Of a stretch of DNA of 64,000 bases, positions 5,429 through 29,400 are shown piece after piece. The stretch comes from Cephalotus follicularis (Eukaryota > Streptophyta > Magnoliopsida > Oxalidales > Cephalotaceae), in contig BDDD01002369.1 of the NCBI GenBank assembly GCA_001972305.1, positions 1-64,000 on the forward strand. Direction: 5' to 3'. The notes below the pieces were generated by a model, which was given only the letters and a program-made list of their open reading frames with translations, was not told the DNA's origin and did not search any database. Position numbers and translations under genes: made by a program. How positions within the stretch are numbered: the first letter of the stretch is position 1; each line of letters opens with the position of its first letter.

Positions 5429-5443
5429 CTACAAACACAATTA

Positions 5444-5942: not shown

Positions 5943-5955
5943 CTTTCAAAGAAGG

Positions 5956-6990: not shown

Positions 6991-7052
6991 ACTAATCTTG
7001 CTTCTTTGACTTGATTTGTCCCTTCATAAGTGACCTCAAGTCTATCCCACAT

Positions 7053-7435: not shown

Positions 7436-8512
7436 TGAATAAACTACAATGGGGGGAGGGATTAACTAATTTAAAGAGAGAGAGTTAGAGAATTTACAAA
7501 CACAGTTTTAGAGTGGTTTGGCTTAACTCTTGCCTACATCCACTTTTCCCAAGGATCTCCTTGAGTTTCCACTCGTCTCCGAATAAAATTCTGGGTGCTA
7601 TTCGGTACACCTTTGTGATTGGCCTCAATCACTTACAATTCTCTTTGGGTTCACTCCCAATCTCTCTTAGGGTTCACTCCCCTATTACAATCAAAGTGTA
7701 AAAAGAATAATGTTTGTCCTTAACCTCCCAAAGGTTGGATATTACAAGATAGTATCTCTCAAAAACTAAGTAGCAACAAATATTCGCCAAGATACAAAAC
7801 AAGGGCTTTTGAAAGAAACTTGATGATTTTGAATGCTTGTGGTGTTTTTGCTTGATTTGATCTTTGTATATATGTTCTCTTGTATTCTTGTTGTTTTCTT
7901 TCTTCAAATAATTCTTTGTATATAGCCGTTTCTCGCTTCATAAATCCGTTGGATGTGTCTTGAAACTTGTTGCTTCAAAAACGGCTCATTAAAACTCTGT
8001 CAGAAATTTTTCTAGCCGTACAGAGCGTCGACAGTTTGCCTCAAAGCATCGTCGCTTATATGACCGTTGGGCAGTTCACATTTGAATTGTCTGGTCAAAG
8101 CGCTGACATTCTGGATTTTGGAGTCGACCGTTTCCTCAAAGCGCTGACGCTTTGTGTTGAGCGTCGCCACTTTTGTCAAATTGATTAGCTCCATGAAATC
8201 TCTAGTTTTAACCGCTGACAGATGGCGTCAAAGCGCAGACGCTTTGAGTTAAAGCACTGGCGCTTGCATTTAAGCGTCGACGGTTTGGACACTTACTCCT
8301 TTCCTTGAAACGCTTCAACGGTTGACGCTTTGTTCCTTGCTTCGACTGTTGCACAAAGCGCTAACGCTTACTTCCTGAGTGTCGATGCTTTAAGTTGTTT
8401 CTGCAATTTTCTTGCTGTTTTGTACATTCTATGTTTTTCTTGCACATAAAGTAACTTTGTTAAACACAAATATGTTATCATCAAAACTAGTATTGAGACA
8501 TAAATGTCAACA
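7436..8512 (-). repeat. Cop1 5' LTR (1077 bp)
   Basis: Read on the minus strand, it starts TGTTGACATT at 8512 and ends in CA at 7436 next to the primer site. It is homologous to the Cop3 LTR (55950-57112). Positions 8022-8400 hold a dense palindrome cluster (GTCGAC at 8027-8032; AAGCGTCGACGG at 8272-8283). A TATA-like CTATATAC lies at 7925-7918 and a purine/G run at 7450-7461. Confidence 0.9.
7918..7925 (-). promoter_or_regulatory. TATA box of Cop1 LTR
   Basis: CTATATAC on the minus strand, about 100 bases downstream of the palindrome cluster. The equivalent in Cop3 is CTATAAAC at 56536-56543. Confidence 0.5.
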
Positions 8513-9390
8513 TCATCAATGGCCATTTATTAACTTTGACCTCAAAATTGCATGTATAAATCCCCTACCTTTGATTCCAAGTTAGGAATCCGAAAGTCCA
8601 CCTCTTTAAGTCCTCAGAAGTAGTGTTTGAGCTCCCCCAGTAGCTCCAAGCAGCTTGTTTCCCTTCCTGCTTTGTGCTTTCCAAGCTTGCACAGGTCCAA
8701 CAATGGACAATGGCTCTCCTTTTCTCTCTTTTCTCTTCCTTTCCTCTCACTATTTCTCTCTATTTTCTCTTATGTTTTTCTTTCTGTTCTTTCTTCCTTT
8801 TCTCCTTTCTCCAGGTAACGTGTGAAGGAAGTCACGTTTTATGGTGTTGTGTGTTTCCTCTACCTTCCTTCATTAGCCGCACATGCATGGCGTTTTCCTG
8901 CCTCTCCCTACTCACCTGTGCTTGACCCGCAGGTGTCCACTTCTTCCTTTTCTTCTGGCGTTTCATGTTCTGGCGACATGATGGCATGTCCAACACGTTT
9001 CTACTCACATTTCAAGGCGCCTAAATACCTGCCCTTCATCACATTTATGTCAGTGTTTCACATGTGTTCTGATGTTCGACATTAAGCGTCAACGCTTACT
9101 CGTAAGCATCAGCGCTTATATCATTTTATTCATTGGAGTCGATGCTAACACTTGGCGTCGATGCTTTACGTGCATGTGTTTTATGCCCGTGTTTTGCATC
9201 TTTGGCGTCGACGCTTTGATTCTGGGCGTTGAAGCTTAGGCTAGTTTCCAGCACTTTTCAATTCACATAACACCCTTAGCACTCGTTACTCAATTTTACA
9301 ACATCATCATATTGGAGAATCCATAATTTTATTAATTCATATTCCAATTACAATACGAAATACAATGGATGGAATTTTTTGGCATTATAG
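8513..9390 (-). repeat. Decayed LTR remnant, unit 1
   Basis: This stretch resembles 9960-10733 (shared phrases near 8545-8600 and 9290-9370) and the LTR core of Solo1 near 14170. A pyrimidine-rich block (8700-8815) and GTCGAC-type motifs (9085-9245, for example GTCGAC at 9207-9212) match the layout of minus-sense LTRs elsewhere in the window. The end near 9388 (GGCATTATA) looks like a decayed GGACATTACA terminus. Small frames here are low-complexity and not genes. Confidence 0.5.
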
Positions 9391-10733
9391 AACTTTTCTA
9401 AAATGATAAAACACTTTAGAAATCAATCACATTTCAATTCACATTTCAATCCATAATTTAAAGTGCAAGCAAACATATGCTCAAAATGCAGACAGACCCT
9501 TTTGGTGTCAACACCTAACCTCTAGGCGTCAATGTGTATAGCAGTCCCTTAAGCGTTAACGTGTGCCCCTAGCGCCAACACTTATAGAAGTCTTTCTAGG
9601 TGTCAACTCGCACCCCAGGTGTCAATGTGTATATCGCGAACAATGTTCAGGACAGACTCTCTAGGTGTTGACGTCCTGTCTCTTTGGCGTCGACGCTTCA
9701 AGGCAAGGGCCCTTGAGCGTCAGCGCTTTACCTCTTGGTCGCGACGCTCTAAGGTAAGGAACCTTAGGCGTGAACTTTTTAAGCGTCTTTCTCTCATATA
9801 ATAGGCCAAGGTGTCAACGAGTACCTTTAGGCGTCAACGTCTGTGCAGCCACTAAAATGTCTTTTTCCTATCACAACGCACAATAGTGCCTCGAAATCGC
9901 TGAAACCAAGCAAAACGACGCATGCAAATCAATCCATATTCGTTTCTACCATTTTCTTTCTTGCATCTCATCAATGAACAGTTATTATAACTGAACTCAA
10001 AATTACAGTTATATAATCCCTACCCCTGATTCCAAGTTAGGGATCGAAGTCTACCTCCTCAAGTCTTACCGACTAGTAGCTTTTTGAGCTCCCAGGTCCG
10101 GTGCAGTAGCTCCAAGTTCGAGATTCCAACTCCCAAGCTTCAAGATTTCCAATCTTTTGTCTAGCCCAACAATGGAGGATATGATTTCCTCTCTCTTTTC
10201 TCTCTCTTCCTCCTGTTTCCTTCACTGTTTCTCTCTCTTTCTTATCTGTTTTTTCTTTCTCTTTTCTCTTTCTGTGAAGGTTGGAGAAGACATGAGAGGT
10301 GCGCTTTATGGAGGAGTTTCTCTCTCTTCTCTCCGCCCGCCTGCACACACATGTCCCTTCTTTCTCTTCTCTCTACTATCTCAGAGCTTGGGGAAATGGT
10401 AAAGTGTCTCATACTTCTCTTTCACGCGTCTTCTAACAGTGTTTTAACTTACTTTACCGATAATTTTAGGCATTGACGTCAACCTTTAGGCATTGATGCC
10501 TTGACCATCCATCTTAGAGTTAACAGGCTCCACGAACCGTGTTAACGATTATCTCTTTTGTTCCCAATCGATGGGCATCGACGCTCAAAGCCTCTCTTTT
10601 CGCTTCATTTTTAATCCAACACAACATTGCTTACCACTTTCCGTTCCGAATTCAACATCATAAGTTGAATATCCATAATTCTTATGAATTCATCATTTAA
10701 ATTACAATGAGAAATACAATAATACATTAAATA
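9391..10733 (-). repeat. Decayed LTR remnant, unit 2, split by Gyp1
   Basis: The right end continues after Gyp1 at 29401-29423 and finishes GGGACATTACA, so on the minus strand it would start TGTAATGTCCC, a typical plant gypsy LTR start. Motif clusters at about 9495-9840 (GTCGAC at 9689-9694) and 10470-10590 and a pyrimidine block (10180-10280) match unit 1. No coding capacity is seen. Confidence 0.5.
10729..10733. repeat. Target-site duplication of Gyp1, left
   Basis: AAATA directly before the TG of the 5' LTR; repeated at 29401-29405. Confidence 0.85.
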
Positions 10734-11284
10734 TGTAATAACCACAATTTCAATTAATGTATATTGTAACCTATGATGAATAAAAATATGCATTTTCTTG
10801 AGTTTATATGTTGGGTTATCTTTTGATTAGAATGAAATTTGGAATAAATTATTAAATGAAGATTAAAGAAGTTAATTTTGGTGCTAAACTGCCGACACCT
10901 AACGTCGTACCGTTGACGCTTTGAGCCCAGACACATTTACAAAATGTGTAGTCGAGAGCTGGGTTATGACGCACAAACCGTCAACGCCAGAGAGAAAACC
11001 GTCGACGCTTTGCGCGGTGGTAGGGCTGTGATACACGCCTGTTAGAACAGAGCAGTGGCGCCAAATGGTTTCCATGAGAGCTAAGTGTCCAGAGACGTGG
11101 CAGACATGCAAGGAAAGCCAGACTAAGTGCCTTGCATGTGCTCTCCATCCATGCAAGTCTGCATACCTGCAATCACAGCAGAAAAGTGAGAGAAAGAAAC
11201 AAAGAGTGAACGAATGCATGAGGGACAGAGAAATTGTACAATGAATGTTAAACTAGATGAGGAATTAAAGACACGAAATTGACC

Positions 11285-11292
11285 CTTTATAT
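11285..11292 (+). promoter_or_regulatory. TATA box of Gyp1 5' LTR
   Basis: CTTTATAT follows a purine-rich stretch (11167-11240). It is conserved in the 3' LTR (27458-27465) and, slightly changed, in Solo3 (near 35793). Confidence 0.55.
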
Positions 11293-11428
11293 CAACTGTG
11301 AGAGATTGAATGAGAGTGTTAGAAAACACTGAGCAATAGGGAGAACAATTGGACAGTGGCTGAGATTGCATGTAGAAGGAGCTTGAAGTTCAAAAAGAAT
11401 TGAACTTGGAACATCACCTGGGAAATTG

Positions 11429-11434
11429 GTAAGT
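11429..11434 (+). promoter_or_regulatory. Splice-donor-like site in Gyp1 LTR leader
   Basis: GTAAGT about 140 bases after the TATA box. It is conserved in the 3' LTR (27602-27607), in Solo3 (35935-35940, preceded by CCCAG) and in both Gyp2 LTRs (minus strand, 22878-22873 and 18944-18939). Confidence 0.5.
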
Positions 11435-12345
11435 TAATAATCCGAATTTCCTTGATATAGTTAAGGTTGTTAGTGATGTAGCATACTGATGTTAGCTATA
11501 CATATCCATTGTTAAAAAACAATTATGGAGTAAACCTGGACTTAGAGATTGGATGAGTATAAATTGTAAAAGAGAATTTTGAAGCATTATAAGCTAATGA
11601 TAAGCTATGGTTCCAGCTATAAGTTTATACCATGATTTGATAACAAGATAAACTTACTGGTATTAATGCATAAACCTGTAAACATGCAATTGTTTAGGCT
11701 AATTTCTGCAAATTGGAAGATTGAAAGGAGGGTGAAGAACATTGGACATAAAGAGAGAAATCAATCCAAATTGATTTCGGGATAGCGTTTTAAGGTTGGG
11801 GTTTTGACATGTTTTTGAACATATAACATGTATAATGTGTAGGGATGGTTAAGATTTGATTGCATGTTGAATTGGACTGAGATTGAATCGATTTTGTGCA
11901 TGCCCTATTTTGTTATTGCTCCTGGAAATTTGTAAGAACTCCAGAAGCGCCGACGCTTAGGTTTAGACAGTCGATGCTTTGGTGTGTAAAAATGGCATAT
12001 TAAGGCTTAGAATGTCGATGCTTTACGCTTTGATTATGTGTCAGTGTCAACGCTTAATCGACAACTGTCGACACCTAAATGGAAACTGTCGACGCTTTAG
12101 AACAGTAATTGTGGAAATGCTTATTTGATTGATTGAATTGGTTGAGGTTGAGAATATCCTTGAATTGCTATATTGTATTGCTGCCATTACTGTTTATTAA
12201 AGTAATTACTACTGTTACATATAAACTTCAAGGATTATACAAACTTAATACTTTAAGCATAAATAATGATTTTAAACAACAAATTTCTGACGGAAAATCT
12301 TATTGTTATACAATTGTTATTTTCCTCTATAAGAGGTACTGTATC

Positions 12346-12350
12346 GTTTT
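12346..12350. repeat. Target-site duplication of Solo1, left
   Basis: GTTTT before the element; repeated at 14733-14737. Confidence 0.8.
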
Positions 12351-13327
12351 TGTCACACCCCGTTTCCATAAACATAGACAACATATAAAGTGGTACGGAA
12401 ATCAACATAAAAGTCCGGCTTATGCAAAATTTCCATAAATTTAAAACTTTTCAAATCCATTAACAACTTGCGGAAGCATCAAATATAAGCCGAACACATC
12501 ACGCATCCCATACTACGTGATGCCCGATAATCCAAACGTAACTGTTGATCGCCCAAAACGGGGCGTGAGTTAAAGATACAATACAGATAACAAATATCCA
12601 ACGTACAAAAACCAAATAACATGATAAATGTTCAATAACCCAAAATAAGAGAAAATAACAAGTCTTCTCTTTAAATCTCCGTGCATGCTCCATGTCAAGA
12701 CCACTCCATCAATCTGTTACAGTAGGGGTTAGCCTTTGTCCTCACTCGGCTAAGTGAACAAAACCATAAATACAGTTCAAGTAATAAGACAATGAGTATC
12801 ATGAATGAATGCATGATGATGAGCCATGTCATGAAATTTTCATAGTAAAAATACCTCCGTATATACATATAAAAATATCTGCATGCTCACAGTACAAGTA
12901 TAACTCAAAAGTTATATTAACACAAGCAGTAAATATGTTCCCAAAAAGGAACCAGACAGTCCAGTCGTCATGACCGTCGCCACCTCCTGGCCCCAACGTC
13001 GTGCACTCTAACTCCGTCCCCGTTTGCGAACGGTTTTGGAGCAAATCCTCCGTAAGTTGTTTAGCATGGCGACCAAACCAACAACAAGTTACTAGCACGG
13101 CGGCTAAGTAATCAACAGGTTATTAGCACGGCGGCTAATAATCAACAGGCACAAGCAATCCACAGTACAAGTCAAGCAATTACACATATTTACTTGATCA
13201 AATATATTTGTTTTTAATACTTATATATATAAAAGCTTTACTAACCCCTTCATAAAGGTTTCTGTCTCTATACATAACAAAATTCAAATACTGAATAACG
13301 TTGAACACTTGACTTTTCATATAAAAT

Positions 13328-13862
13328 NNNNNNNNNNNNNNNNNNNNNNNNNNNNNNNNNNNNNNNNNNNNNNNNNNNNNNNNNNNNNNNNNNNNNNNNN
13401 NNNNNNNNNNNNNNNNNNNNNNNNNNNNNNNNNNNNNNNNNNNNNNNNNNNNNNNNNNNNNNNNNNNNNNNNNNNNNNNNNNNNNNNNNNNNNNNNNNNN
13501 NNNNNNNNNNNNNNNNNNNNNNNNNNNNNNNNNNNNNNNNNNNNNNNNNNNNNNNNNNNNNNNNNNNNNNNNNNNNNNNNNNNNNNNNNNNNNNNNNNNN
13601 NNNNNNNNNNNNNNNNNNNNNNNNNNNNNNNNNNNNNNNNNNNNNNNNNNNNNNNNNNNNNNNNNNNNNNNNNNNNNNNNNNNNNNNNNNNNNNNNNNNN
13701 NNNNNNNNNNNNNNNNNNNNNNNNNNNNNNNNNNNNNNNNNNNNNNNNNNNNNNNNNNNNNNNNNNNNNNNNNNNNNNNNNNNNNNNNNNNNNNNNNNNN
13801 NNNNNNNNNNNNNNNNNNNNNNNNNNNNNNNNNNNNNNNNNNNNNNNNNNNNNNNNNNNNNN
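13328..13862. other. Assembly gap (N)
   Basis: 535 undetermined bases within Solo1; their content and true length are unknown. Confidence 0.99.
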
Positions 13863-14345
13863 GAAACCAAACAGATAATTTCAAGTGGCCAAAATGGCCG
13901 TCTGCAATAAATATCACAGTCCAACGATTTTCCCAGAAAAGGAGTCGATGTCTTTATAAAAGACGTCGATGTCTTTTACCTTACAGAATGTGTTTTCCAT
14001 GGTTTCAACACACCAAGCCATTTCTAAACCAATCCTTTACATAAGCTACACACGTATTCATGTATCTATACATACATGATTAACTCAGTACATCACAGTA
14101 ACATTTCAACAAGTCCAGAATTTCAATCCATTCAACAACATGCAATTCATCATGCTAAACATTAACTTTAGAACTCAAAATGCACATATGAATCCATCAC
14201 TTTCCCCTACCTTTGATTTCAAGTTAGAAATCGAAAGTCCACCTCTTTTAGTACTCCAACAGGTCACTTGAGTCCATAGGTACGCTTTGGCAACTCCCTG
14301 GTTCGTCCTGGCAGTTGGTGTGCAAGCTCCAAGCTCCAACAATGG

Positions 14346-14364
14346 CACACACACACACACACAC
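14346..14364. repeat. CA/AC microsatellite
   Basis: About nine AC dinucleotides next to a pyrimidine-rich block in Solo1. Confidence 0.9.
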
Positions 14365-15615
14365 TTTTTCTCTTTCTCTCTTCTCTCTTTCCTTCTGGTG
14401 TTATAAAACGAGAGAAATGGGTTGGGAGGGTTATTTTTATGCAGACACCTCCCACCTAACACATTTCTTCTGCCATCTAACAACCACACTTCTTCCCATG
14501 CATTCACGTGTGCCCTAGCTCACAAAGGAGTCGACGTCTTTCCAAAAGACGTCGATGTCTTTTGGCCAAAACAGCGCCGTTTCAAGCTTGAACACACACA
14601 CTCCATTTCTAAGTCCATAACTAGGGTTTGCAAGCATCTTTTGAGGCCAAAGCTCAACATTCTCATTAAATCAAGATTAATGATTACATCATAAATCAAA
14701 ATATTACATCCAAGAAAATGCCGGGCGTTACAGTTTTGTTCTCCAAGAGAACCACTGACTGAATTGCTATGTTTTCTAAAAATGAAAACTATCGTTATAT
14801 TGCATATTATAGATATATGTAATATTGTCATTGAATTGATTGTCTATGCTATTGTCGTTAGTCGAGTGATGGCAGATGTCACTGGCTACGGAGGTGGTCC
14901 TATGTGCCAGGAGTTGGCTAGAGTATCCACCCAAACTCTCTGCAATACAGATCTCGATTGTTAAACTGCCCGCTAATTCCGGTAGTAACTGACCTGATCT
15001 ATCATCTTCATAGTGAAGGGTGATAGATAGGTGGTGCACAATTGGTGCTAGGAGTTAGCGACATGTGACACCCAAACCACTGTATTGATTGATTGTACCC
15101 TTGTGCGGTATTCATGCATTGTATTGTCTATGGACACTTGGCATGATTGCTCATATATTGAAATACTTATATATATATATGTTATTTCAGATAAACTGTC
15201 AAGCATGTTTGCAATTATATATTCAATTATCATGCATTATTTCCTACTTAGCCAAGTGAGGATAACGGCTAACCCCCTACAATTTCAGATTAAGTGAAGA
15301 CGTTTGAAAAGTGCTGCTGAAGCTTTTGGAGAGCTTCTATTTTGTTAAGGTTGTTATTGTTATGTTTTGTATCAAAATGAACGTTCACACTCCGTTGTTG
15401 CTGTTTTACTTTCCTTTATGTACAAGGATAATTATTAGTATTGTGTAAGCAAGTAGTATGGGCTGCGTGCGGATGTTTTTTATATCCGGCTTTAAATGCT
15501 TCCGCTATTTGTTAATGAGTTCACATTAATATTGAATGTTGGATTATTATTTATATTCTGATATCACCACATATGCTTGTCTCAAATGGAATTGAAAGGC
15601 GGGGTTTGACAGGCA

Positions 15616-15627
15616 TGGTATCAGAGC
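15616..15627 (+). promoter_or_regulatory. Primer binding site of Gyp1
   Basis: TGGTATCAGAGC four bases after the 5' LTR end (GGCA spacer), matching initiator-Met tRNA. Confidence 0.92.
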
Positions 15628-15691
15628 ATATTCCATATATGCTACCTGGGATATGTTTCTCAGAAATTAAGTGAATTGTTTCGTAATGATT

Positions 15692-16977
15692 ATGTCATTT
15701 CATATAGGAGACTGAATGGACCTATGAAGAGGTATGAGAGGAAGGCGTAGAGCCGCTGAAGGAGTCAATGCACCGCTAGTGCATGAACATGATCTGCCAG
15801 CGAATGAAGGAGTGAATATTCCTCCAGTACAAGAAGAGAGGAGTAATTTTGACCGCATGGCTGACCTCTTCCAACAGCAGATGCAAGCCAATGCGGCAAA
15901 CATGGACAGATTCGGCAAATCAACATGCTCCTGAAGCTTGTCATACTGGTGGATTTGGCAGAGATTTGGAGCGGTTCATGAGACAGAATCCTCTGATTTT
16001 CAATGGTGAGCTGAATGCTACTGTGGCCGAGCAGTGGATTAGAGACCTGGAGAAAATATTTGCTGCCTTGGAGTGTACTGATGAGCAGAAACTCAACTTT
16101 GTTGTATACCACTTATGGGGCGAGGCTACCTATTGGTGGGAAAGGATTGAAGTAAGGTGGGAATCTGGTGGACTTGACAGGACTTGGGACAGATTTCAGT
16201 CTGAGTTCCTTGCAACTTATGTGCCACAGATAGAACGTAACCGGTGGGAGACCGAACTGATGGAGTTACGTCAAGGGGATATGACGGTAGCTTAGTACCA
16301 GACTAGATTTGTGGAGCTGGCAAGACATACACCTTATCTTGTGGAGGGTGAATCACGAATGATCCGAAGGTTTCTAAAAGGCCTTCGACCTGACATCAGA
16401 TCTAAACTGTTAATGTTGCAGCTAACTTCTTTTGTAGATATTGCTGAGGGGGCAATGATTCTTGAAGCTGGTACTAATGAAAGAAGAGCGGAGTGGTCTC
16501 GTACTAATCAATCGAGTGCCGCACAGTCACAGGGGCAAGGGAGTAATAATCCTGCTAAGTCGACAAGGTCCGACAACAAGGTTCAAGGAGGTCCTCGACG
16601 CAGAAATTCACGATCAAGAACTCCTAACCGAAGCGGTCAACAGAATGCGGGTGGATGTACTTTTTGTGGTCATCAGAACCATGATGAGACTGAGTGCTGG
16701 AAAATGATGGGGAAATGCCTGAGGTGTGGTTCACAGGAACATATGCTGAATAGTTGTCCAATGATGAGGGATCAAGCACGCGGCCAACAGGGAAGTGCTG
16801 GTGCGAGTGGTAGTGTTGCGGGTGCTCAACTGCGGAAGGATACCAGAAAAGGGATTGTGAAAGGTAGGGTCTACGCCTTATCTAGAGATGATGTGCCAGA
16901 ATCTACTACTGTTGTGGTTGGTACCATTTTTATATCTGACATACTAGCTCATGAATTGATTGACCCTGGTGCGACAC
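15692..16977 (+). pseudogene. Gyp1 gag and start of protease
   Basis: The start ATG at 15692 is placed by homology with Gyp2 gag (20828, minus). Stops TGA at 15713 and about 15734, a frame change near 15930, and TAG at about 16293 (a CAG codon in the relative) break it. From 15930 the frame holds the retrotransposon Gag core (GEATYWWER, DRFQSEFLATYVPQIERNRW, RRFLKGLRPDIRSKL), then two zinc knuckles CTFCGHQNHDETEC and CLRCGSQEHMLNSC, and the start of the protease (GRVYALSRDD...LIDPGAT). The protease motif has Pro in place of Ser/Thr (CCT at 16965-16967). Gyp2 interrupts two codons later, and the frame resumes correctly at 23559. Confidence 0.9.
16973..16977. repeat. Target-site duplication of Gyp2, left
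   Basis: GACAC before Gyp2; repeated at 23559-23563. The duplicated bases are part of the Gyp1 protease codons A-T-H. Confidence 0.9.
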
Positions 16978-19624
16978 TGTCACACCCCGTTTTCAATATA
17001 CGTTATAGACAAGCATATATGGTGATATCAGAAATAAGAATAAATAATATTCCAGCAACAATTAATAAATAAATTTGCGGAAGCATTCGAAAAGCCGGAA
17101 TATAAATACAAGTCATTTGCACGCATCCCATACTACATGCAGGTATAATTCAACAATTATCCTTACATAAGGAAAACAACAACAACGGGATGTGATCCGT
17201 TCAATACAAATACAATACATCATAAATAACAACCTTAAATTGACGATTAGAAGCTCTCCAAGCTTCAGCAGCAATCTCCAAGTCTTCGCTTAATCTGAAA
17301 CTGTAGGGGGTTAGACTTTGTCCTCACTCGGCTAAGTAGGGAACATGTATGAAAACGAATATATAAATGTATCCATGCAAGGTAGTTAAATATAAACAGT
17401 AAAATCATATACATGCCAAAATATATATACGAGCAATCATGCCAACTGGCTAAAATGAATCATTCAATCAAACACGTCGCAAAGGACCAATCAATTCTAC
17501 CTTTAAGGATGCGTACACTCATATGTTTAGCATTCGGATACATAACACTCCGTGATTAGTAACCTCGTTACAACACACTCCTTGATTGTAACTAAAAATT
17601 TTACAATGTAGGGATACGTACACTCATATGTTTAGCATCCGGTTACATAACACTCCGTGATCAGTAACCTTGTTACATCACACTCCATGATTGTAACCAA
17701 GTTAAATTACACTCTATGATTATAACGGACAATCAGCTCAATCAGTCATTGCAAGTAGTTTATAGAAGTAAAATACTTGATTTGTATAGCAACAACATTC
17801 AATCTATCGAAGATATGCACTTCCGTATTATGACTTCATCAAGGATACTTTTCCTCAAAGAAGCAAACAATTCAATAACATTGAGTTTCAATGAAGAAAC
17901 AAAAACGTAGAAGTCTCACTTTGGGAGAAATCTATTCAATAACGCTAAACAATCACACAGCATAACGTATCAATAGCAGTATGAACAACTAAACCGATTT
18001 CAGAGTTATTCGGTCTCGAAATCAGGGTTCCACCACATGGGGTGTATAAGACATTCAATCTCCTGTGTTTCGATTACATGTAGCAGGGACTGATTTTGGA
18101 AATCATCCTCTATGGAAGCTAGTGTAATTACAGGAATTTGTTCCAAATGGTACAATCGAATTACTCTAGGAATCAAACAGCACACTTTGAAGTTCGATTC
18201 GGTATTAACAACAATAGTACACTATTGTCAATTATACAAGAGGAATTGATCCTTAGAAGTATGAATCCAATAATCCCGTATGAATTCACAATTGTCAAGC
18301 TTGAAAAGTAGGATCAAATTCCAGTACTGATCATCCGTAAAACCAGAAAATTTCCTCTAACAGCCCAGAACAGTCGGCTGCCTCCCTGTGGCAGTCGGCT
18401 ATTCATCGTAGCAGTTGACTGCCTACCTTAGCAGTCGACTATTTAGGTTGAGTAGTCAGCTGTTCCTTATGAACAGTCGACTGCTTTTGTCCAGGAGTTC
18501 ATCCCGCAGAACAGAGCATGCAGGCTCTCAATCCAAATCATTCAAACAATAACATGCAATCGGTATAACTATCAAAACATGACATGCATAATATATATTT
18601 CAAGATCATATCATAGCCCCTGCCTTAAAACGCTATCCCAAAATCAATGGAGCTTGATTCCTCTATTTGAGTTCCAACTTTTAGTTCAACCTTCCAACTC
18701 CAGTAATTTCAGTCTATACATTTACATGTTTAAGGACATGCATTAGTATCCGAAGTTCAACTAATTAACTGGTTACAATACCAAATCCAACAGTAGCTTA
18801 TCATCATGTTTATCAATTCCATCTTGGCCCTTTAACCATTCTATCTCAATTCCCAATTATCCACATTGTTCATATTAACAGAAGGTATATCTGACTAACA
18901 TCCTCCTAGTTATAATATTATAACAGGTTCGGATGGTGACTTACCAGGAATTCAAGCTTTGAGGTCTCTTGTTCACTCTCTCTTGGAGTCTCCAACTTCA
19001 AGCATGCAACTCCAAAATTCTCCAGCAAGTTCCTCAATCCTCAGTGTTTGTAACTTACTAACTCCACTCTAACCACTGATATAGGGTTAGGAAATCCTAG
19101 AATTTGTCAGATTACCATTACCCCAACATTTCCTCCATTCTCTCTCTCGCATGCCTTACTCCCTTCATTTTCATTTCTTATATGTCTTGCATGTTGCAGG
19201 TCTTCAAGTCTTGCAGAGCATATGCAAGGGCTTTCCTTGCATGTTATGGCAGCTGGTGGCATGCTCACGACACCTGTTCCTTGCATGCCACGCCCCTGCT
19301 CTATCTCACGCATGCAGAGACACCTGTTCTGCTGCTAATTCCAGTCGACTGTCTTAAGTGGCCAGTCGACTGTCCCTTTTTAATGGCTAACAGTCGACTG
19401 TTCCCTTGTGACAGTCGACTGTCCTACCCAATTCCTGATCCCTTAATTTTTTATTCCTCCAACTTCTTTTCAGTTCTAATTAGTCATTACGACTTGGAAT
19501 TTAAACCTTCAAAACAACAATTTGCTGAATTTAAAGGAAGAATTTAACATCAAACCTTTAACCAATATATATTTTATTCATCAATCCGTACGATATACAT
19601 TCATTAAAATTTGCGGTTGTTACA
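16978..19624 (-). repeat. Gyp2 3' LTR
   Basis: On the minus strand it starts TGTAACAACCGC at 19624 and ends GGGGTGTGACA at 16978. It contains CAGTCGACTG-type palindromes at 19344-19419 (four full GTCGAC cores at 19344, 19365, 19393 and 19414) and 18370-18490 (cores at 18434 and 18476), a TATA-like CCCTATATCA (19087-19078), a GTAAGT donor (18944-18939) and an acceptor-like TTTCAG (AG at 17296-17295). Confidence 0.92.
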
Positions 19625-19638
19625 TTCCCCCCTCCTTA
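19625..19638 (-). promoter_or_regulatory. Polypurine tract of Gyp2
   Basis: The minus strand reads TAAGGAGGGGGGAA directly before the 3' LTR, identical to the Gyp1 tract at 26894-26907. Confidence 0.88.
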
Positions 19639-19706
19639 TAAAAATTCGTCCTCGAATTTATAGATACATATCTATCCAAGAGGGAACGTTTCAAACATTT
19701 CACCGG

Positions 19707-20828
19707 TCAGTTATCCTTTGACCGCGAAGGTCCAGCTGCAGCATCGTGATCACTCGCAGCTCCAGGAAGGATTGTCTTTCGCCGATTCGGACAAGCCATC
19801 AAGAAATGGTCGGTTGCTCCGCACTTCATGCACAACCCATTTTTCAACCAACAATCTTCCAGCCGATGGCTTTTACGGCCACAGTGTGAACAAGCTTCAG
19901 GTTGAGCATCATTCTCCTGAATAGCAATCTTTGATGATCCAGCAGGATTATTACTTCCCTGCCAGTGTGAAGAAGTAGGTCTCGATTGAATAGCACGAGA
20001 TCTTTCTACCCTCCGTTCATTTGCATCAGCCTCCAGAATCATTGCTCTCTCAGCAACCTCAACAAACGAGGTCAGCTGCAACATCAATAGTTTAGATCTG
20101 ATGTCAGGTCGAAGGCCTTTCAGGAACCTCCGGATCATCCGTCACTCACCCTCCACAAGATAAGGTGTGTGCCTCGCTAGCTCCACAAATCTGGTCTGGT
20201 ACTGAGCTACCGTCATATCTCCTTGACATAACTCTATCAACTCTGTCTCCCATCGATCACGCTCAATCTGTGGAACATATGCCTCAAGAAACTCGGACTG
20301 AAATCTGTCTCAAGTCCGGTCAAGTCCACGGGCTTCCCATTTCGCTTCATTTCTCTCCCACCAGTAAGTAGCCTCACCCCATAAGCGGTACACAGCAAAA
20401 TTGAGCTTCTGGTCATCAGTACATTCAAGGACAGCAAATATTTTCTCCAAGTCTCTTATCCACCGCTCGGCAACAGTAGCGTTCAGTTCACCATTGAAAG
20501 TCAGAGGATTCTATCGCATGAACCGCTCCAAATCTCTGCCAAAACCACCGGCATGACAAGCATCGGGTGCTTGCTGATATGCCCGGTTGGCTTCGTACAT
20601 TTGCCGAATTTGTTCCATGTTCGCTGCATTTGCTTGCATCTGCTGTCGGAAAAGATCAGCCAGGTGGTCAAAATTACTCATCTCGTCATTCGCTGGAGGA
20701 ACATTCACTCCTTCATTCATTGGCGAAACATTTTCAGGTACTGGCGGAGCATTGATCCCCTCGTCGGCTCTACGCCTTCCCCTTCTACCACTTCGTAAAT
20801 CCATTCGGTTTCCCATCTGGAATGACAT
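19707..20828 (-). pseudogene. Gyp2 gag with three premature stops
   Basis: Starts at ATG 20828 (MSFQMGNRMDLRSGRRGRRR) and ends at a natural stop at 19707, about 70 bases before the polypurine tract. One frame covers about 373 codons, interrupted by TAG near 20513 (CAG in Gyp1), TGA near 20312 (Trp codon in Gyp1) and TGA near 20141 (Ser codon in Gyp1). The Gag core phrases RRFLKGLRPDIRSKLLMLQL and WGEATYWWER match Gyp1. Two zinc knuckles near the C-terminus read CSHCGRKSHRLEDC and CMKCGATDHFLMAC. The protein would package RNA into particles; no pol follows. Confidence 0.9.
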
Positions 20829-20895
20829 AATTCATTAGGAAACAATTCACTCAAATTTTTGAGAAACTTATCCCAGCTTAGCATATATGGAATAT

Positions 20896-20907
20896 GCTCT
20901 GATACCA
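20896..20907 (-). promoter_or_regulatory. Primer binding site of Gyp2
   Basis: The minus strand reads TGGTATCAGAGC three bases after the 5' LTR end. Confidence 0.92.
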
Positions 20908-20910
20908 TCT

Positions 20911-23558
20911 TGTCACACCCTGTTTTCAATATACGTTATAGACAAGCATATATGGTGATATCAGAAATAAGCATAAATAATATTCCAGCAACAATTCATA
21001 AATAAATTTGCGGAAGCATTCGAAAAGCCGGAATATAAATACAAGTCATCTGCACACATCCCATACTACACGCAGGCATAATTCAACAATTATCCTTACA
21101 TAAGGAAAACAACAACAACGGGATGTGATCCGTTCGATACAAATACAATACATCATAAATAACAACCTTAAATTGACAATTAGAAGCTCTCCAAGCTTCA
21201 GCAGCAATCTCCAAGTATTCGCTTAATCTGAAACTGTAGGTGGGTTAGCCTTTGTCCTCACTCGACTAAGTAGGGAACATGTATGAAAACGAATAAATAA
21301 ATGTATCCATGCAAGGTAGTTAAATCTGAACAGTAAAATCATATACATGCCATAATATATATACGAGCAATCATGCCAACTGGCTAAAATGAATCATTCA
21401 ATCAAACACGTCGCAAAGGACCAATCAATTCTACCTTTAAGGATGCATGCACTCATATGTTTAGCATCCGGTTACATAACACTCCATGATTAGTAACCTC
21501 GTTACAACACACTCCATGATTGTAACTAATAATTTGACAATGTAGGGATGCGTACACTCATATGTTTAGCATCCAGTTACATAACACTTCGTGATTAGTA
21601 ACCTTGTTACATTACACTCCATGATTGTAACCAAGTTAAATTACACTCTATGATTATAACGGACAATCAGCTCAATCAGTCATTTCAAGTAGTTTATAGA
21701 AGTAAAATACTTGATTTGTATAGCAACAACATTCAATCTATCGAGGATATGCACTTCCGTATAATGACTTCATCAAGGATACTTTTCCTCAAAGAAGCAA
21801 ACAATTCAATAACATTGAGTTTCAATGAAGAAACAAAAACGTAGAAGTCTCACTTTGGGAGAAATCTATTCAATAAAGCTAAACAATCACACAGCATAAC
21901 GCATCAGTAGCAGTATGAACAACTAAACCGATTTCAGAGTTATTCGGTCTCGAAATCAGGGTTCCAACACATGGGGTGTATAAGACATTCAATCTCCTGT
22001 GTTTCGATTACATGTAGCAGGGACTGATTTTGGAAATCATCCTCTATGGAAGCTAGTGTAATTACAGGAATTTTGTCCAAATGGTATAATCGAATTACTC
22101 TAGGAATCAAACAGTACACTTTGAAGTTCGATTCGGCATTAACAACAATAGTACACTATTGTCAATTATACAAGAGGAAAGGATCCTTAGAAGTATGAAT
22201 CCAATAATCCCGTATGAATTCACAATTGTCAAGCTTGAAAAGTAGGATCAAATTCCAGTACTGATCGTCCGTAATACCGGATAATTTCCTCTAACAGCCC
22301 AGAACAGTCGGCTGCCTCCCTGTGGCAGTCGGCTGTTCATCCTAGCAGTCGACTGCCTTCCTTAGCAGTCGACTATTTAGGTTGAGTAGTCGGCTGTTCC
22401 TTATGAACAGTCGACTGCTTTTGTCCAGGAGTTCATCCCGCAGAACAGAGCATGTAGGCTCTCAATCCAAATCATTCAAACAATAACATGCAATCGGTAT
22501 AACTATCAAAACATGACATGCATAATATATATTTCCAGATCATATCATAGCCCCTACCTTAAAACGCTATCCCGAAATCAATGGAGCTTGATTCCTATAT
22601 TTGAGTTCCAACTTTTAGTTCAACCTTCCAACTCCAGTAATTTCAGTCTATACATTTACATGTTTAAGGACATGCATTAGTATCAGAAGTTCAACTAATT
22701 AACTGGTTACAATACCAAATCCAACAGTAGCTTATCATCAAGTTTATCAATTCCATCTTGACCCTTTAACCATTCTATCTCAATTCCCAATTATCCACAT
22801 TGTTCATGTTAACAGAAGGTATATCTGACTAACGTCCTCCTAGTTATAATATTATAACAGGTTCGGATGGTGACTTACCAGGATTTCAAGCTTTGAGGTC
22901 TCTTGTTCACTCTCTCTTGGAGTCTCCAACTTCAAGCATGCAACTCCCAAATTCTCCAGTAAGTTCCTCAATCCTCAGTGTTTGTAACCTATTAACTCCA
23001 CTCTAACCACTGATATAGGGTTAGGAAATCCTAGAATTCGTCAGATTAGCATTACCCCAACATTTCCTCCATTCTCTCTCTCACATGCCTTACTTCCTTC
23101 ATTGTCATTTCTCATATGTCTTGCAGGTTGCAGGTCTGCAAGTCTTGTAGAGCACATGCAAGGGCTTTCCTTGCATGTTATGGCAGCTGGTGTCATGCTC
23201 ACGACACCTGTCCCTTGCATGCCACGCCCCTGCTCTGTCTCACGCATGCACAGACACCTGTTCTGCTGCTAATTCCAGTCGACTATCTTAAGTGGCCAGT
23301 CGACTGTCCCTTTTTAATGGCTAACAGTCGACTGTTCCCCTTTGACAGTCGACTGTCCTACCCAATTCCTGATCCCTTAATTTTTTATTCCTCCAACTTA
23401 TTTCCAGTTCTAATTAGTCATTACGACCTGCAATTTAAACTTTCAAAACAATAATTTACTGAATTTAAAGGAAGAATTTAACATCAAATCTTTAACCAAT
23501 ATATATTTTATTCATCAATCCGTACGATATACATTGATTAAAATTTGCGGTTGTTACA
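20911..23558 (-). repeat. Gyp2 5' LTR
   Basis: It has the same elements as the 3' LTR: palindrome clusters at about 23275-23355 and 22310-22425, a TATA-like site near 23020-23011, a GTAAGT donor at 22878-22873 and an acceptor AG at 21229-21228. The donor-acceptor distance is about 1.65 kb. Confidence 0.92.
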
Positions 23559-25137
23559 GACACATTCATTCATTGCATCTGAATTTTCTTGCAACTTACA
23601 CGGTGTTACTTCTAGAATGCCTTATGTATTAGAAGTGAGTACTCCAGTGGGTACTTGTCTTCTATCTGACACTATAATGAAAGATTGTGAGATCATGGTA
23701 GCTGGGATTCAGTTATCTGCTGACTTGATAGTATTACCTATCCGGGATTTTGATGTAATCTTGGGAATGGACTGGTTGTATGCTCATCATGCTTGTGTTG
23801 ATTGCTACAATAAGATGATGACCTTTTACCTTCAAGATGGGGCTGAGTGCAAGTTTATCAGGGAGAAGAAAGTTTCTGCTCCGATCATTTCGTATACTCG
23901 AGCTCAGAAGTATCTCAAGCAAGGATGTGAAGGCTATTTGGCGTATGTGATTGATCATACGAAAGGTACGCCTAGTATTGAACAAGTTCCTGTTGTATGT
24001 GAATTTCCTGATGTATTCTTGGATGATCTCAATTCGTTACCACCGGAGAGAGATATAGAGTTCAGCATTGAACTATTGCTGGGGACTGCTCCTATATCCA
24101 AAGCATCGTACCGAATGGATCCTGTCGAACTGAAGGAGTTGAAGATTCAATTGCAGGATTACCTTGATAAGGGCTTTATCAGACCAAGTGTATCACCATG
24201 GGGAGCACCGGTTCTGTTTGTGAAAAAGAAGGATGGATCAATGCGGCAATGCATCGATTACAGGCTGCAAAATCAGGTAAAAGTGAAGAACAAGTATCCT
24301 CTGCCACATATTGAGGAATTGTTCGACCAATTGCAAGGCTCTACTGTATTCTCCAAACTTGACCTAAGAACAGGTTATCATCAGCTAATGATCCAAGAAT
24401 GTGATGTGGAGAAGACCGCATTTCAAACCAGATATGGGCATTACAAATTTCTGATACTGCCGTTTGGTTTGGCGAATGCTCCTGCAGCCTTTATGTGTTT
24501 GATGAATAGGGTGTTCCAGCCTTATCTTGACCAGTTTGTCATTATATTCCTAGACGACATCCTGATTTATTCAAAGAACATTGAGGAACACATGCAGCAT
24601 TTGAGAATTGTATTGCAGACATTACGGAAGGAACGACTATTCGCCAACTTCAGCAAGTGCGAGTTTTGGCTGGATCATGTGACTTTCCTAGGTCACATTG
24701 TGTCGAGTGAAGGATTTTCGGTGGATCGTTCGAAGATAGAGAGTATTATTGATTGGCCCCAACCGAGGAGCGTTACTGAGGTTCGTAGCTTCTTGGGATT
24801 GGCTGGCTACTACCGAAGGTTCATCAAAGGGTTTTCGAAGCTTGCTACACCACTGACACAGTTGACTCAGAAGAAGTCAAGTTTTGTGTGGGATGATTCT
24901 TGTGAGGCAAGTTTCCAAGTGTTGAAGAGTCGGTTGATTTCGGCTCCAGTGTTGGCATTACCAGAAGGTAATGAGGGTTTTACTGTCTATACCGATGCTT
25001 CTGGGAAAGGATTGGGATGCGTTCTTATGCAACATGGTATGGTGATTGCGTACGCATTGAGGAAGTTAAAGTCGTACGAAGAAAATTATCCCGTACACGA
25101 CCTTGAGTTGGTCGCCATAGTGTTCGCTTTGCAGAAA
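23559..25137 (+). pseudogene. Gyp1 protease remainder, reverse transcriptase and RNase H start
   Basis: Removing Gyp2 restores the frame from the LIDPGAT motif into this 531-codon stretch. It holds the protease end (VILGMDWL), RT motifs ([40 protein letters not shown]) and the catalytic FLDD at residues 335-338 (GAC GAC at 24553-24558), then LGHIVSSEG and [11 protein letters not shown]. RNase H begins with [11 protein letters not shown] and [15 protein letters not shown] at 25138 replaces the Trp codon of the usual W-R-H-Y-L-Y-G. All RT catalytic residues are intact. Confidence 0.92.
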
Positions 25138-26010
25138 TAGAGGCACTACCTCTATGGTGCTCAATTTGAGATCTTCACTGACCATAAAAGTTTAAAGTAC
25201 TTATTTTCCCAGAAGGAGCTCAACATGAGACAGAGTCGATGGGTGGAATTATTTAATGATTACAACTGCAACATTCAATACCACCCAGGAAAGGTGAATA
25301 CAGTGGCAGATGCGCTGAGTCGCAAAGCTATGATTGTTGGAGCAATGGTTTCACAATGGAAGCTATTGGAGGAATTTCAGAGATGGAATCCGTTCATGGT
25401 TTCCTAAGGGGTTATTGTGGCAAGTCTGAGGGCACAACCAAAAATTTTGGAGCGTATTCTGACTGCTCAATATAGTGACACTGAGTTATGGAGTATTCGT
25501 GAGAACCTAGACACTGACTCTGAATTCTCCATCATTACTGATGGCATATTGAGGTTTCGAGGAAGGATATGTGTTTCGGATGACGAGAGCATTAAGGCTG
25601 AACTACTGCAACAAGCCCATAAGTCAAAATACAGTGTTCACCCGGGAAGTTCCAAGATGTGGTAGGACATGAAAAAGAACTACTTGTGGAGTGGTATGAA
25701 AAGAGAGATTGCTGAATACGTGGCAAGCTGTTTGACCTGTCAGAGAGTGAAGGCCGAACATCAGAAACCTGCGGGACTGCTACAATCATTACCAGTAGTT
25801 GAGTGGAAATGGGAACATGTGACCATGGACTTCGTGTCGGGATTGCCGAGATCCCGGAATCAACACGAAGTAGTGTGGGTTGTCGTGGACAGACTCACTA
25901 AGTCTGCTCACTTTCTTCCAATGAACATGACGTATTCTATTGAGAAGCTTGCTCGATTGTATATCCGGGAGATAGTGAGATTGCATGGGTGCCGGTCATA
26001 TTGTTTGTGA
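25138..26010 (+). pseudogene. Gyp1 RNase H end and integrase N-terminal half
   Basis: This continues in frame after TAG 25138 with [20 protein letters not shown] and VNTVADALSR (RNase H end). TAA near 25405 and TAG near 25663 follow. The integrase zinc-binding region ends SCLTCQRVKAEH. The catalytic core starts VTMDFVSGL and VVVDRLTKSAHFLP. Two frameshifts near 25990-26015 disrupt the region holding the second catalytic aspartate. TAG codons replacing Trp or Gln fit CG/CHG-type C-to-T decay. Confidence 0.88.
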
Positions 26011-26866
26011 CCGAGATGCTAGATTCACTTCACGATTCTGAAAGAATTTCCAAGCAGGGATAGGAATGACATTGAACTTTAGTACTGCGTTCCACCCATA
26101 GACTGACGGACAGTCCGAGCGTACCATTTACACTCTGGAGGATATGCTACGGGCTTGCATGATTGATTTTGCTTGGAGTTGGGAGGATCATCTGGCACTG
26201 ATTGAATTCTCTTACAACAATAGTTTCCACACCAGCATTGGAATGGCTCCCTATGAAGCCTTGTATCGGAGAAAGTGCAGATCGCCTATCTACTGGGACG
26301 AGGTAGGTGAGAGACAAGTGCTGGAACCATACTTGGTACAAGAGACTACTGATAAAGTCAAAATAATCCAGAAGAGACTGCTAGCTGCACAAAGTCGGCA
26401 GAAGAGTTACGCCGATAGCAAGATGAGAGAGCTAGAATTCGAGAAGTGAGATCATGTTTTCCTAAAGATCTCGCCTTCGAAAGGGATAGACCATTTTGGC
26501 CTCAAGGGAAAGTTGGCTCCAAGGTATATTGGACCTTATGAGATACTGGAAAGAGTGGGGGACGTGGCATATCAGATTGCACTACCGCCCAGTTTGTCGA
26601 GTGTGCATAACGTCTTTCATGTTTCCATGTTACGGAAATACGTGCCTGACCCATCTCACATATTGAGCTACGACCCTGGATTCATCAGTCCTAGATTGTC
26701 TTATGAAGAAAGGCCGACGAGGATCGTGGATCAAATGGAAAAGGTGTTGAGGAATAAGACTATTCATATGGTAAAAGTACTGTGGCGTTTTCACGGAGCA
26801 GAGGAAGCTACGTGGGAGCGTGAGGACGAAATGATGGAGACATTTCCCCACTTGTTCGAAATGTAA
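26011..26866 (+). pseudogene. Gyp1 integrase C-terminal half and chromodomain
   Basis: In a new frame, DRDARFTSRF carries the second catalytic aspartate and SERTIYTLEDML the glutamate. TGA near 26039 (Trp), TAG near 26101 (Gln) and TGA near 26447 (Gly) interrupt. LIEFSYNNSFHTSIGMAPYE and PRYIGPYEILERVGDVAY are the GPY/F-type integrase tail. The last 60 residues (VKVLWRFHGAEEATWERED) form a chromodomain, which in chromoviruses directs integration to heterochromatin. The natural end is near 26866, just before the polypurine tract. Confidence 0.9.
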
Positions 26867-26893
26867 GGGCTAAATTCGAGGACCAATTTTCTT

Positions 26894-26907
26894 TAAGGAG
26901 GGGGGAA
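26894..26907 (+). promoter_or_regulatory. Polypurine tract of Gyp1
   Basis: TAAGGAGGGGGGAA directly before the 3' LTR start. Confidence 0.92.
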
Positions 26908-29400
26908 TGTAATATGCGCAATTTCAAATAATGTATACTGTAACCTATGATGAATAAAAATATGCATTTTCTTGAGTTTATATGTTGGGTTATCTTTTTA
27001 TTAGAATGAAATTGGAATAAATTCTTAAATGAAGATTAAAGAAGTTAATTCTGGTGCTAAACTGCCAATGCCTAACGCCGTACCGTCGATGCTTTGAGCC
27101 CAGACACGTGTACAAAACACGTAGTCGAGAGCTGGGTTATGACGCACAAACAGTCGACGCCAGAGAGAAAACTGTCGACGCTTTGCGCGGTGTCAGGACT
27201 GTGATACACGCCTGTTAGAACAGAGCAGTGGCGCCAAATGGTTTCCATGCGAGGTAAGTGTCCAGAGACGTGGTAGACATGCAAGGAAATCAAGACTAAG
27301 TGCCTTGCATGTGCTCTCCATCCCTGCAAGTCTGCATACCTGTAATCACAGCAGAAAAGTGAGAGAAAGAAACAAAGAGCGAAGGCATGCATGAGGGAGA
27401 GAGAAATTGTACAATGAAATTTAAACTAGCTGAGGAATTAAAGACATGAAATTGACCCTTTATATCAACTGTGAGAGATTGAATGAGAGTGTTAGAAAAC
27501 ATTGAGCAATGGGGAGAACAATTGGACAGTGGCTGAGATTGCATGTAGAAGGAGCTTGAAGTTCAAAAAGAATTGAACTTGGAACATCACCTGGGAAATT
27601 GGTAAGTTACTAATCCGAATTTCCTTGATATAGTTAAGGTGGTTAGTGATGTAGCATACTGATGTTAGCTATACATATCCATTGTTAACAAACAATTACG
27701 TAGTAAACCTGGAATTAGATATTGGATGGGTATAAATTGTAAAAGAGAATTTTGAAGCATTAGAAGCTAATGATAAGCTATAGTTCAAGTTATAAGTTGT
27801 TACCATGATTTGATAACAAGAAAAACTTACTGGTATTAATGTATAAACCTGTAAACATGCAATTGTTTAGGCTAATTTCTGCAAATTGGAAGATTGAAAG
27901 GAGGGTGAAGAACATTGGACATAAAGAGAGAAATCAATCCAAATTGATTCGGGATAGCGTTTTAAGGTAGGGGTTTTGACATGTTTTTGAACATATAACA
28001 TGTATAATGTGTAGTGATGGTTAAGATTTGATTGCATGTTGAATTGGACTGAGATTGAATCAATTTTGTGCATGCCCTGTTTTGATATTGCTCCTGGAAA
28101 TTTGTAAGAACGTCGGAAGCGCCGACGCTTAGGTTTAGACAGTTGACGCTTTGGTTTGTAAAAATGGCATATTAAGGCTTAGAATGTCGACGCTTTACGC
28201 TTTGATCGTGTGTCAGTGTCAACGCTTAATCAACAACCGTCGACGCCTAAATAGAAACTGTCGATGCTTTAGAACAGTAATTGTGGAAATGCTTATTTGA
28301 TTGATTGAATTGGTTGAGGTTGAGAATATCCTTGAAAGGATATATTGTATTACTGCCATTACTGTTTATTAAAGTAATTACTATTGTTACATATAAACTT
28401 CAAGGATTATACCAACTTAATGCTTTAAGCATAAATAATGATTTTAAACAACAGATTTCTGATGAAAAATCTTATAGTTATACAATTGTTATTTTCCTCT
28501 ACAAGAGGTACTGTATCGTTTAGTTCTCCAAGAGAACCACTGACTGAATTGTTATGTTTTCTAAAAATGAAAACTACCGTTATATTGCATTTCATAGATA
28601 TATATAATATTGTCATTGAATTGATTGAATTAATTGTCTATGCTATTGCCGTTAGTCGAGTGATGGCAGATGTCACTGGCTACAGAGGTGGTCCTATGTG
28701 CCAGGAGTTGATAGAGTATCCACCCAAATTATCTGCAATGCAGATCTTGATTGTTAAAATGGCCGCTAATGCTGGTAGTAACTAACCTAATCTATCATCT
28801 TCGGAGTGGAGGGTGATAGATAGGTGGTGCACAGTTGGTTCTAGAAGTTAGCGACATGTGACACCCAAACAACTGTATTGATTTATTGTACCCTTGTGCT
28901 GTATTCTTGCATTGTACTGTCTATGGCCACTTGGCATGATTGCTCATATATTGAAATACTTATATATATGTTATTTCAGATAAACTGTCATGCATGTTTA
29001 CAATTATATATTCAATTATCATGCAATTATTTCCTACTTAGCCAAGTGAGGACAACGGCTAACCCCTACAATTTCAGATTAAGTGAAGACGTTTGGGAAG
29101 TGCTGCTAAAGCTTTTGGAGAGCTTCTATTTTTTTAAGGTTGTTATTATTATGTTTTGTATCGAAATGAACGTTCACACTCCGTTGTTGCTGTTTTACTT
29201 TCCTTTATGTACAAGGATAATTATTAGTATTGTGTAAGCACGTAGTATGGGCTACGTGCGGAAGTTTTTTATATCCGGCTTTAAATGCTTCCTCTATTTG
29301 TTAATGAGTTCACATTAATATTGAATGCTAGATTATTATTTATATTCTGATATCACCACATATGCTTGTCTCAAATGGTATTGAAAGGCGGGGTGTGACA
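26908..29400 (+). repeat. Gyp1 3' LTR (2493 bp)
   Basis: Starts TGTAATATGCGC and ends GGGGTGTGACA, followed by the AAATA duplication. Order inside: palindrome cluster 1 (GTCGAC at 27153 and 27174), TATA (27458-27465), GTAAGT (27602-27607), cluster 2 (GTCGAC at 28186 and 28239), and TTTCAG acceptor-like site (AG at 29076-29077). Confidence 0.93.

Follow-up and report, generated by a model that had tools for sequence, protein, structure and literature searches.

What reads the clusters of palindromes centered on GTCGAC that recur in the long terminal repeats (LTRs) of both copia and gypsy retrotransposons of Cephalotus follicularis? The question arises from a stretch of 64,000 nt (contig BDDD01002369.1, positions 1 to 64,000; hereafter the window), in which elements of the two superfamilies lie nested beside each other. 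We observed that these clusters are local representatives of a genome-wide system of regularly spaced arrays, the outer bases of which differ between element families, and that such arrays also lie directly upstream of genes coding for the PF20167 ('Transposase_32') domain. As the arrays precede a PF20167 gene and their class appears to follow the clade of its product, we favor a factor encoded by the elements themselves. Specifically, we give an even chance to the proposal that the arrays are binding sites of an element-encoded, nuclear, DNA-binding PF20167 protein with an activating or anti-silencing role like that of VANC.

A genome-wide system of palindrome arrays

In the window, 47 copies of GTCGAC are present as against 5.8 (standard deviation 2.3) in shuffled versions, none of 100 of which reached 47, with the observed count being inflated by the pairing of LTRs. 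The enrichment extends to a 200 kb sample of the 1.577 Gb Cephalotus assembly, comprising 20 pieces of 10 kb (L005-L024) taken at regular steps along contigs: here we found 108 copies against 17.4 expected, spread over 16 of the 20 pieces, and no other 6-base palindrome with three or more copies had a higher observed-to-expected ratio. By their outer bases we distinguish class A (AAGCG-N4-CGCTT), class B (CAGTCGACTG), class C (GACGTCGACGTC) and class D (GCGTYRACGC), the last of which is first recognized in the present analysis. The reversed pattern of each motif served as its control. The exact class A 14-mer, AAGCGTCGACGCTT, has 18,108 copies in the assembly and its reversed control 15. Near matches in the 200 kb sample number 91 for class A, 45 for class B and 61 for class C (controls 1, 5 and 6), and several forms far exceed expectation: CGTCGACG (36 vs 0.3), AGTCGACT (39 vs 1.6), GCGTCGACGC (11 vs 0.01), CAGTCGACTG (14 vs 0.09) and ACGTCGACGT (5 vs 0.02). 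The palindrome system is hence a real, strong and genome-wide feature. In the window it is distributed over the following features.

742-1989, minus strand: third open reading frame (ORF) of Cop1, PF20167 ('Transposase_32'), 416 codons with one in-frame stop (TAA)
2136-2243: class A array with a total of four sites, in two pairs 21 bp apart; the third-ORF ATG (1989) lies 147-254 bp downstream
2868-7023, minus strand: remains of Cop1 gag and pol (copia), with RVT_2, rve, gag_pre-integrs and Retrotran_gag_2
7464-8512, minus strand: Cop1 5' LTR, class A sites at 8023-8390, 90% identical to 55950-56989
8513-10732: remnants, class A sites at 9084-9216 and 9685-9728
10733-12349, plus strand: Gyp1 5' LTR, first part, class A arrays at 10908-11010 and 11945-12097, 94% identical to 26907-28521
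12350-14732: insertion in the Gyp1 LTR, containing Solo1, class C sites at 13962 and 14527-14559
14733-15611, plus strand: Gyp1 5' LTR, second part
16978-19624, minus strand: Gyp2 LTR, class B arrays at 18370-18484 and 19341-19422, 96% identical to 20911-23558
20911-23558, minus strand: other Gyp2 LTR, class B arrays at 22304-22418 and 23275-23356
23542-26866, plus strand: Gyp1 pol, with protease, reverse transcriptase, RNase H, integrase, SH3_Tf2-1 and a weak chromodomain
26907-29400, plus strand: Gyp1 3' LTR, class A arrays at 27081-27183 and 28117-28269 (LTR +175-277 and +1211-1363)
35187-37713, plus strand: Solo2, a relative of the Gyp1 LTR, class A arrays at 35369-35515 and 36450-36600
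38921-39173: seven-site class A array in sequence of no assigned element type
41282-41307: Cop2 LTR, two GAGTCGACTC sites 14 bp apart
48666-48690: other Cop2 LTR, the same GAGTCGACTC pair with one site altered
55950-56989, plus strand: Cop3 5' LTR, class A sites at 56073-56438, copia gag from 57166

The first-pass annotation, made from the letters of the window, had proposed that copia and gypsy LTRs have the core in common and that the outer bases are specific to the family, and had named enrichment over shuffled sequence as a check. Both statements stand, and the enrichment is very large: class A is present in Cop1 and Cop3 as well as in Gyp1 and Solo2, and the exact outer bases switch as a set between families. 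Its class A 14-mer holds in approximate form, as AAGCGTCGACGCTT with up to three mismatches matches 53 window sites (control 1), while the exact form was not found in the window, the best sites there having one mismatch. The CAGTCGACTG sites of Gyp2 at 19344-19419 were recovered and recur in the other LTR of this element, and ACAGTCGACTGT with up to two mismatches matches 16 window sites (control 1). The Solo1 form GACGTCGATGTC is present at 14548 and 13962, with class C in the window alone amounting to just five sites against two for its control. The Cop2 form GAGTCGACTC is exact at both sites of the left LTR and at one of two in the right one; as a 12-mer it has two matches in the 200 kb sample as opposed to seven for its control, which rules it out as a genome-wide class and, as far as seen, as a part of this system. 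A further claim, that variant sites are decayed methylated CG, survives in part. At their CpG bases, class A sites have changed for the most part by transition. Nevertheless, changes of other types are found in class A (G3 to C, 27/46; C12 to G, 19/33), and GTCAAC, GTTGAC and GTTAAC forms recur across copies of whole families, indicating that not all variants are products of decay.

The gypsy LTRs reveal that the place of an array may persist while its class changes. The Gyp1 and Gyp2 LTRs are homologous: they are 73% identical over the final 480 bp and 72% identical over some 150-180 bp in mid-LTR, and they match at the very start as well. The class A sites of Gyp1 lie at LTR +175 to +264 and +1211 to +1350, and the class B sites of Gyp2 at +203 to +273 and +1141 to +1244. 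At locus L011, the LTR of an intact-looking gypsy element, barely alignable with those of Gyp1 and Gyp2, bears class C sites at +207 to +295 and +1135 to +1471. Thus, array places are conserved between these gypsy LTRs while the class is not. Gyp1 is probably a chromovirus, its pol ending in a clear SH3_Tf2-1 domain followed by a weak chromodomain (E 0.0005, 20.3 bits, below the Pfam cut-off of 25.1 bits); the L011 element has a similarly clear pol and SH3_Tf2-1, and a chromodomain of 19.2 bits, under the same cut-off. Gyp2 has just 1.3 kb between its two LTRs. In the pol region of the L011 element (L011:3059-4555, sense 5446-6942), a 750-bp stretch is repeated twice in tandem with 100% identity.

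Within arrays, adjacent sites favor a distance of 20-21 bp over any other between 14 and 45 bp. In the 200 kb sample and the window together, and after merging pairs with near-identical gap sequences, 34 of 53 class A pairs, 17 of 34 class B pairs and 11 of 20 class C pairs fall at this distance, with additional peaks near 31-32, 42 and 50-53 bp. The gap sequences themselves are distinct in 34/34 class A pairs and 10/11 class B pairs at 21 bp, and in 9/11 class C pairs at 20 bp. Class C gaps are T-rich and then A-rich because the class C palindrome extends to AAAGACGTCGACGTCTTT. Had a 21-bp unit been duplicated in tandem, the gaps would have remained similar to each other; selection thus seems to act on the distance itself, which equals two helical turns. 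This spacing, the cluster at 2136-2243 ahead of the Cop1 third ORF and the homology of the Gyp1 and Gyp2 LTRs all go beyond the first-pass annotation.

PF20167 genes beside the arrays

The Cop1 element codes for a copia pol (RVT_2, integrase), followed by a PF20167 ORF (E 4e-23 in the piece 1228-2067) that occupies the position of the third ORF of Sireviruses and whose product is 88% identical over 416 aa to the genomic PF20167 protein P0001. In the relatives L051 and L060, inspected by eye, several AAGGGGGAGA-like polypurine tracts precede the 3' LTR, and the last runs GGGGGAG-AT-TG into it; in Cop1 itself the 3' LTR lies beyond the window. Several polypurine tracts and an AT/TG attachment site before the 3' LTR are Sirevirus features (PMC2829016), as are palindromic motifs both in the LTR and upstream of the third ORF. 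The latter were likewise found in Cop1-type elements: before the third ORF there are 15 class A sites in six loci and, for the P0063 type, six in five loci, and in the LTRs 25 sites in four loci and four in two, with all reversed controls at 0. The CGG-CCG signature of Sirevirus motifs is absent from class A. Given that Tnd-1 is listed as an exception to that signature (PMC2829016), its absence weakens only the claim that these are standard Sirevirus motifs, and Cop1-type elements look Sirevirus-like. A function of the third ORF product as an envelope protein was rejected, as a simple hydropathy scan found a membrane-like stretch in none of 28 PF20167 proteins of at least 390 aa.

PF20167 is abundant in the genome, with 13,073 candidate places, and all of the 150 that were scored exceeded the cut-off. 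Upstream DNA was taken for 35 of these 150, 20 of them chosen for their long frames and 15 as absent from the list of close relatives. At least three class D cores precede the gene in 33/35, amounting to 194 in all as opposed to 0 for the reversed control. The remaining two, L027 and L073, have an insertion of a chromovirus/gypsy-type LTR bearing class B sites near the array, which may point to a preference of such elements for array chromatin. A class B group of PF20167 genes, at first suggested by these two loci, was dropped, the class B cluster being that of the inserted gypsy LTR (Gyp2-like in L027). Similarly rejected was the assignment of class A/C arrays to 20 PF20167 loci; these are close to L045 rather than to the Cop1 protein, and their arrays constitute the separate class D.

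At two loci, L053 and L054 (C696 and C1400), which are 90% identical over 2.2 kb, we observed a PF20167 gene, a class D array (21 cores) and then, on the opposite strand, a hAT transposase gene, identified in L053 by Dimer_Tnp_hAT (E 2.5e-24) and a hAT-like RNase-H domain (E 3.2e-9). The two genes are convergent, and class D arrays lie both before the PF20167 gene and between the two. Moreover, many copies of this second PF20167 clade have a common 5' boundary about 700 bp ahead of the domain, and 6 of 13 copies inspected begin with TAGGGTTG. From gene, array, transposase and common boundary, clade 2 is predicted to ride in a hAT DNA transposon, as represented by these two loci. Beside the transposase, both loci also contain a second stretch translating to a sequence like the C-terminal tail of PF20167.

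The two clades are well separated, with mean identities of 60% and 73% within clades and of 28% (maximum 36%) between them; clade 1 goes with class A and clade 2 with class D. Locus L010 helps distinguish protein from element as the correlate of class. Its PF20167 protein belongs to clade 2 (72% identical to L045, 31% to P0001), its array has eight class D cores, and its gene follows a copia gag of the same strand at a distance of about 2 kb. In this case motif class goes with the clade of the protein rather than with the type of element, and with two clades and two classes compared this link suggests, but does no more than suggest, that class follows clade. In L010, L025 and L043 a copia gag or zinc-knuckle stretch lies shortly before the clade-2 gene, with no pol seen between gag and PF20167 gene in L010; these are perhaps non-autonomous Sirevirus-like elements keeping gag and the third ORF.

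The predicted fold of PF20167 may offer a pointer to function. The top structural match of a PF20167 model, a weak one, is to the DNA-bound form of the anti-silencing protein VANC21; a fold search with the full-length model gave poor matches only. At the sequence level, a PF20167 profile search of PDB sequences did not match VANC21, and DUF1985 was not among the best 25 of the 44 families listed when 85 PF20167 members were scanned (E <= 10).

Candidate readers of the arrays

If PF20167 proteins are the readers, those encoded by a Sirevirus-like third ORF or by the hAT-borne gene would bind the arrays, possibly with a dimer on each palindrome and with neighbors two helical turns apart presented on one face of the DNA. 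By analogy with VANC and VANDAL, arrays bound at the LTR and at the element's own PF20167 gene might keep both active or unmethylated. Sites and protein appear to have co-diverged, as clade 1 with class A and clade 2 with class D. The chromovirus-like gypsy elements, in which no PF20167 gene was seen, may have gained A, B or C sites and use the proteins in trans, comparable to the case of AT9TSD1, an unrelated element sharing the VANC6 motif (PMC5735166).

Several observations weigh against this proposal. The chromovirus-like elements have arrays and no PF20167 gene was seen in them, and no PF20167 partner is known for classes B and C, no search for one having been made. Enrichment of class D cores in the 200 kb sample is only mild (18 vs 8). 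Reversed controls are not always silent, with two class A matches in L025/L037/L043 and two class C matches in L011, and class C also scores in the hAT loci (29 and 5) owing to its overlap with class D when two mismatches are allowed. Finally, the spacing statistics assume a uniform spread and independent pairs, while the copies share ancestry.

That retrotransposon LTRs contain enhancers read by host factors is well known, and the main rival, already raised in the first-pass annotation and retained here, is a family of host transcription factors binding the GTCGAC core. Unrelated elements would each have acquired its sites as LTR enhancers, a role stated in general terms for LTRs in PMC2829016; the outer bases would stem from paralogous factors or tissue preferences, and the PF20167 gene would simply have a promoter of this type. 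Such a factor, however, leaves unexplained why class matches clade in a copia-type locus and in a hAT element alike, as well as the change of class at the same positions of the homologous Gyp1 and Gyp2 LTRs. With these observations and the position of arrays ahead of the PF20167 gene leaning toward an element-encoded factor, we consider a host reader unlikely.

Still less probable is a structural or epigenetic role in which, for instance, CpG-rich blocks exclude nucleosomes or methylation and the two-turn period reflects DNA bending. The distances of 20-21, 31-32 and 42 bp are indeed near multiples of the helical repeat, and the Sirevirus motifs form CpG islands (PMC2829016). Yet the outer bases differ from family to family as exact sets, and most class D cores have lost the central CpG, neither of which pure structure would need. 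We regard it as very improbable that the motif segments of copia and gypsy LTRs are one exchanged fragment with the spacing as a tandem-repeat trace: nested insertions do place LTRs side by side, and the two PF20167 promoters with a class B-bearing chromovirus-type LTR are of this nature, but outside the motif the copia and gypsy LTRs of the window have no similarity at E <= 1e-3, which contradicts the exchange of LTR segments suggested in the first-pass annotation, and all the class A gaps at 21 bp are distinct. The only short exception in the LTR comparison is a 37-bp match between Gyp1 and an uncharacterized stretch near 38.6-39.5 kb. There is equally little to recommend hairpins in RNA or DNA strands, serving for example packaging or small-RNA production. 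The sites, as inverted repeats of 10-18 bases with perfect or near-perfect symmetry, would allow them, and all LTR copies are in principle transcribed; but sites also occupy non-transcribed-looking positions of the hAT transposon, and a fixed spacing of 20-21 bp makes no obvious sense for separate hairpins.

Relation to known systems

The two parallels drawn in the first-pass annotation, namely the Sirevirus motifs and the VANDAL/VANC systems, proved to be the useful ones. The repeated motifs of Sireviruses are palindromic, family-specific and present in many copies, and occupy the upper LTR half and the region before the third (ENV-like) ORF (Bousios et al. 2010, PMC2829016). The arrays described here agree in being palindromic, family-specific and multi-copy, and in their location in the LTR and before the third ORF, and the Vitis Sirevirus motif CGGTCGACCG (PMC2829016) has the same GTCGAC core. 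In contrast to those motifs, which are called Sirevirus-specific, have the CGG-CCG signature and are given no binding protein in the sections consulted (PMC2829016), the sites here are also found, with other outer bases, in chromovirus-like gypsy LTRs and a hAT transposon; the spacing of 20-21 bp is not mentioned in the same sections of PMC2829016 or in the first-pass annotation.

The motifs of the VANC proteins are short, family-specific and dense in the non-coding parts of their own element (PMC5735166, PMC10398659). As in the VANDAL/VANC systems of Arabidopsis, we find a transposon gene together with short motifs, differing between families, in non-coding DNA of the element. VANC motifs are, however, non-palindromic (YAGTATTAY, AGTTGTNC) and arranged in tandem repeats (PMC5735166, PMC10398659), whereas the sites here are palindromic; the DUF1985 and DUF287 domains of VANC were not found here by sequence, and the PF20167 carriers are Sireviruses and hAT elements, unlike the Mu-like VANDALs. 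Unpublished VANC-DNA structures are mentioned in a 2026 Japanese meeting report (PMC12859917).

Transposase_32 has also been noted, without known function, in an ORF of sunflower Athila (PMC11728184, PMC7264820), and the TRP28 ORFs of Retand are predicted to bind DNA (PMC11963269). Antisense ORFs among the additional ORFs of such plant elements have been proposed to act in regulation (PMC11728184, PMC7264820, PMC11963269). The PF20167 ORF resembles these in lying outside gag-pol; in contrast, the available parts of these papers do not tie PF20167 to palindrome arrays, a motif class or VANC. In the open-licence PMC literature we found no paper linking PF20167 to VANC or palindrome arrays, and searches on the motif itself, by titles and abstracts, returned none on plant retrotransposons. 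Sirevirus motifs and VANC-type systems are known kinds, while the link to the PF20167 gene, the additional carrier elements and the spacing rule are new.

Should PF20167 be the binder, a function would be available for a plant retrotransposon ORF called envelope-like, and the repeated motifs of Sireviruses, lacking a binding protein since 2010 (PMC2829016), would be explained. Transposon anti-silencing would reach beyond Mu-like elements and take in LTR retrotransposons as well as hAT elements, the class of an array would predict the PF20167 clade binding it, and elements without the gene would depend on those carrying it. More tentatively, and with somewhat less than an even chance, we propose that the Sirevirus 'envelope-like' ORF is a VANC-fold anti-silencing binder of its own helix-phased arrays, that gene and array also travel as a module in hAT elements, that chromoviruses lacking the gene repeatedly acquired these codes and switched between them, and that the whole genome is thereby divided among competing anti-silencing 'languages' common to Class I and Class II elements. 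Even with another protein as the binder, over 18,000 exact sites, helix-phased and family-coded, would be a handle for finding it. A G-box-like palindrome, GACACGTGTC, is likewise strongly over-represented in the 200 kb sample (5 vs 0.07, in four pieces) and may be a further motif family of this kind.

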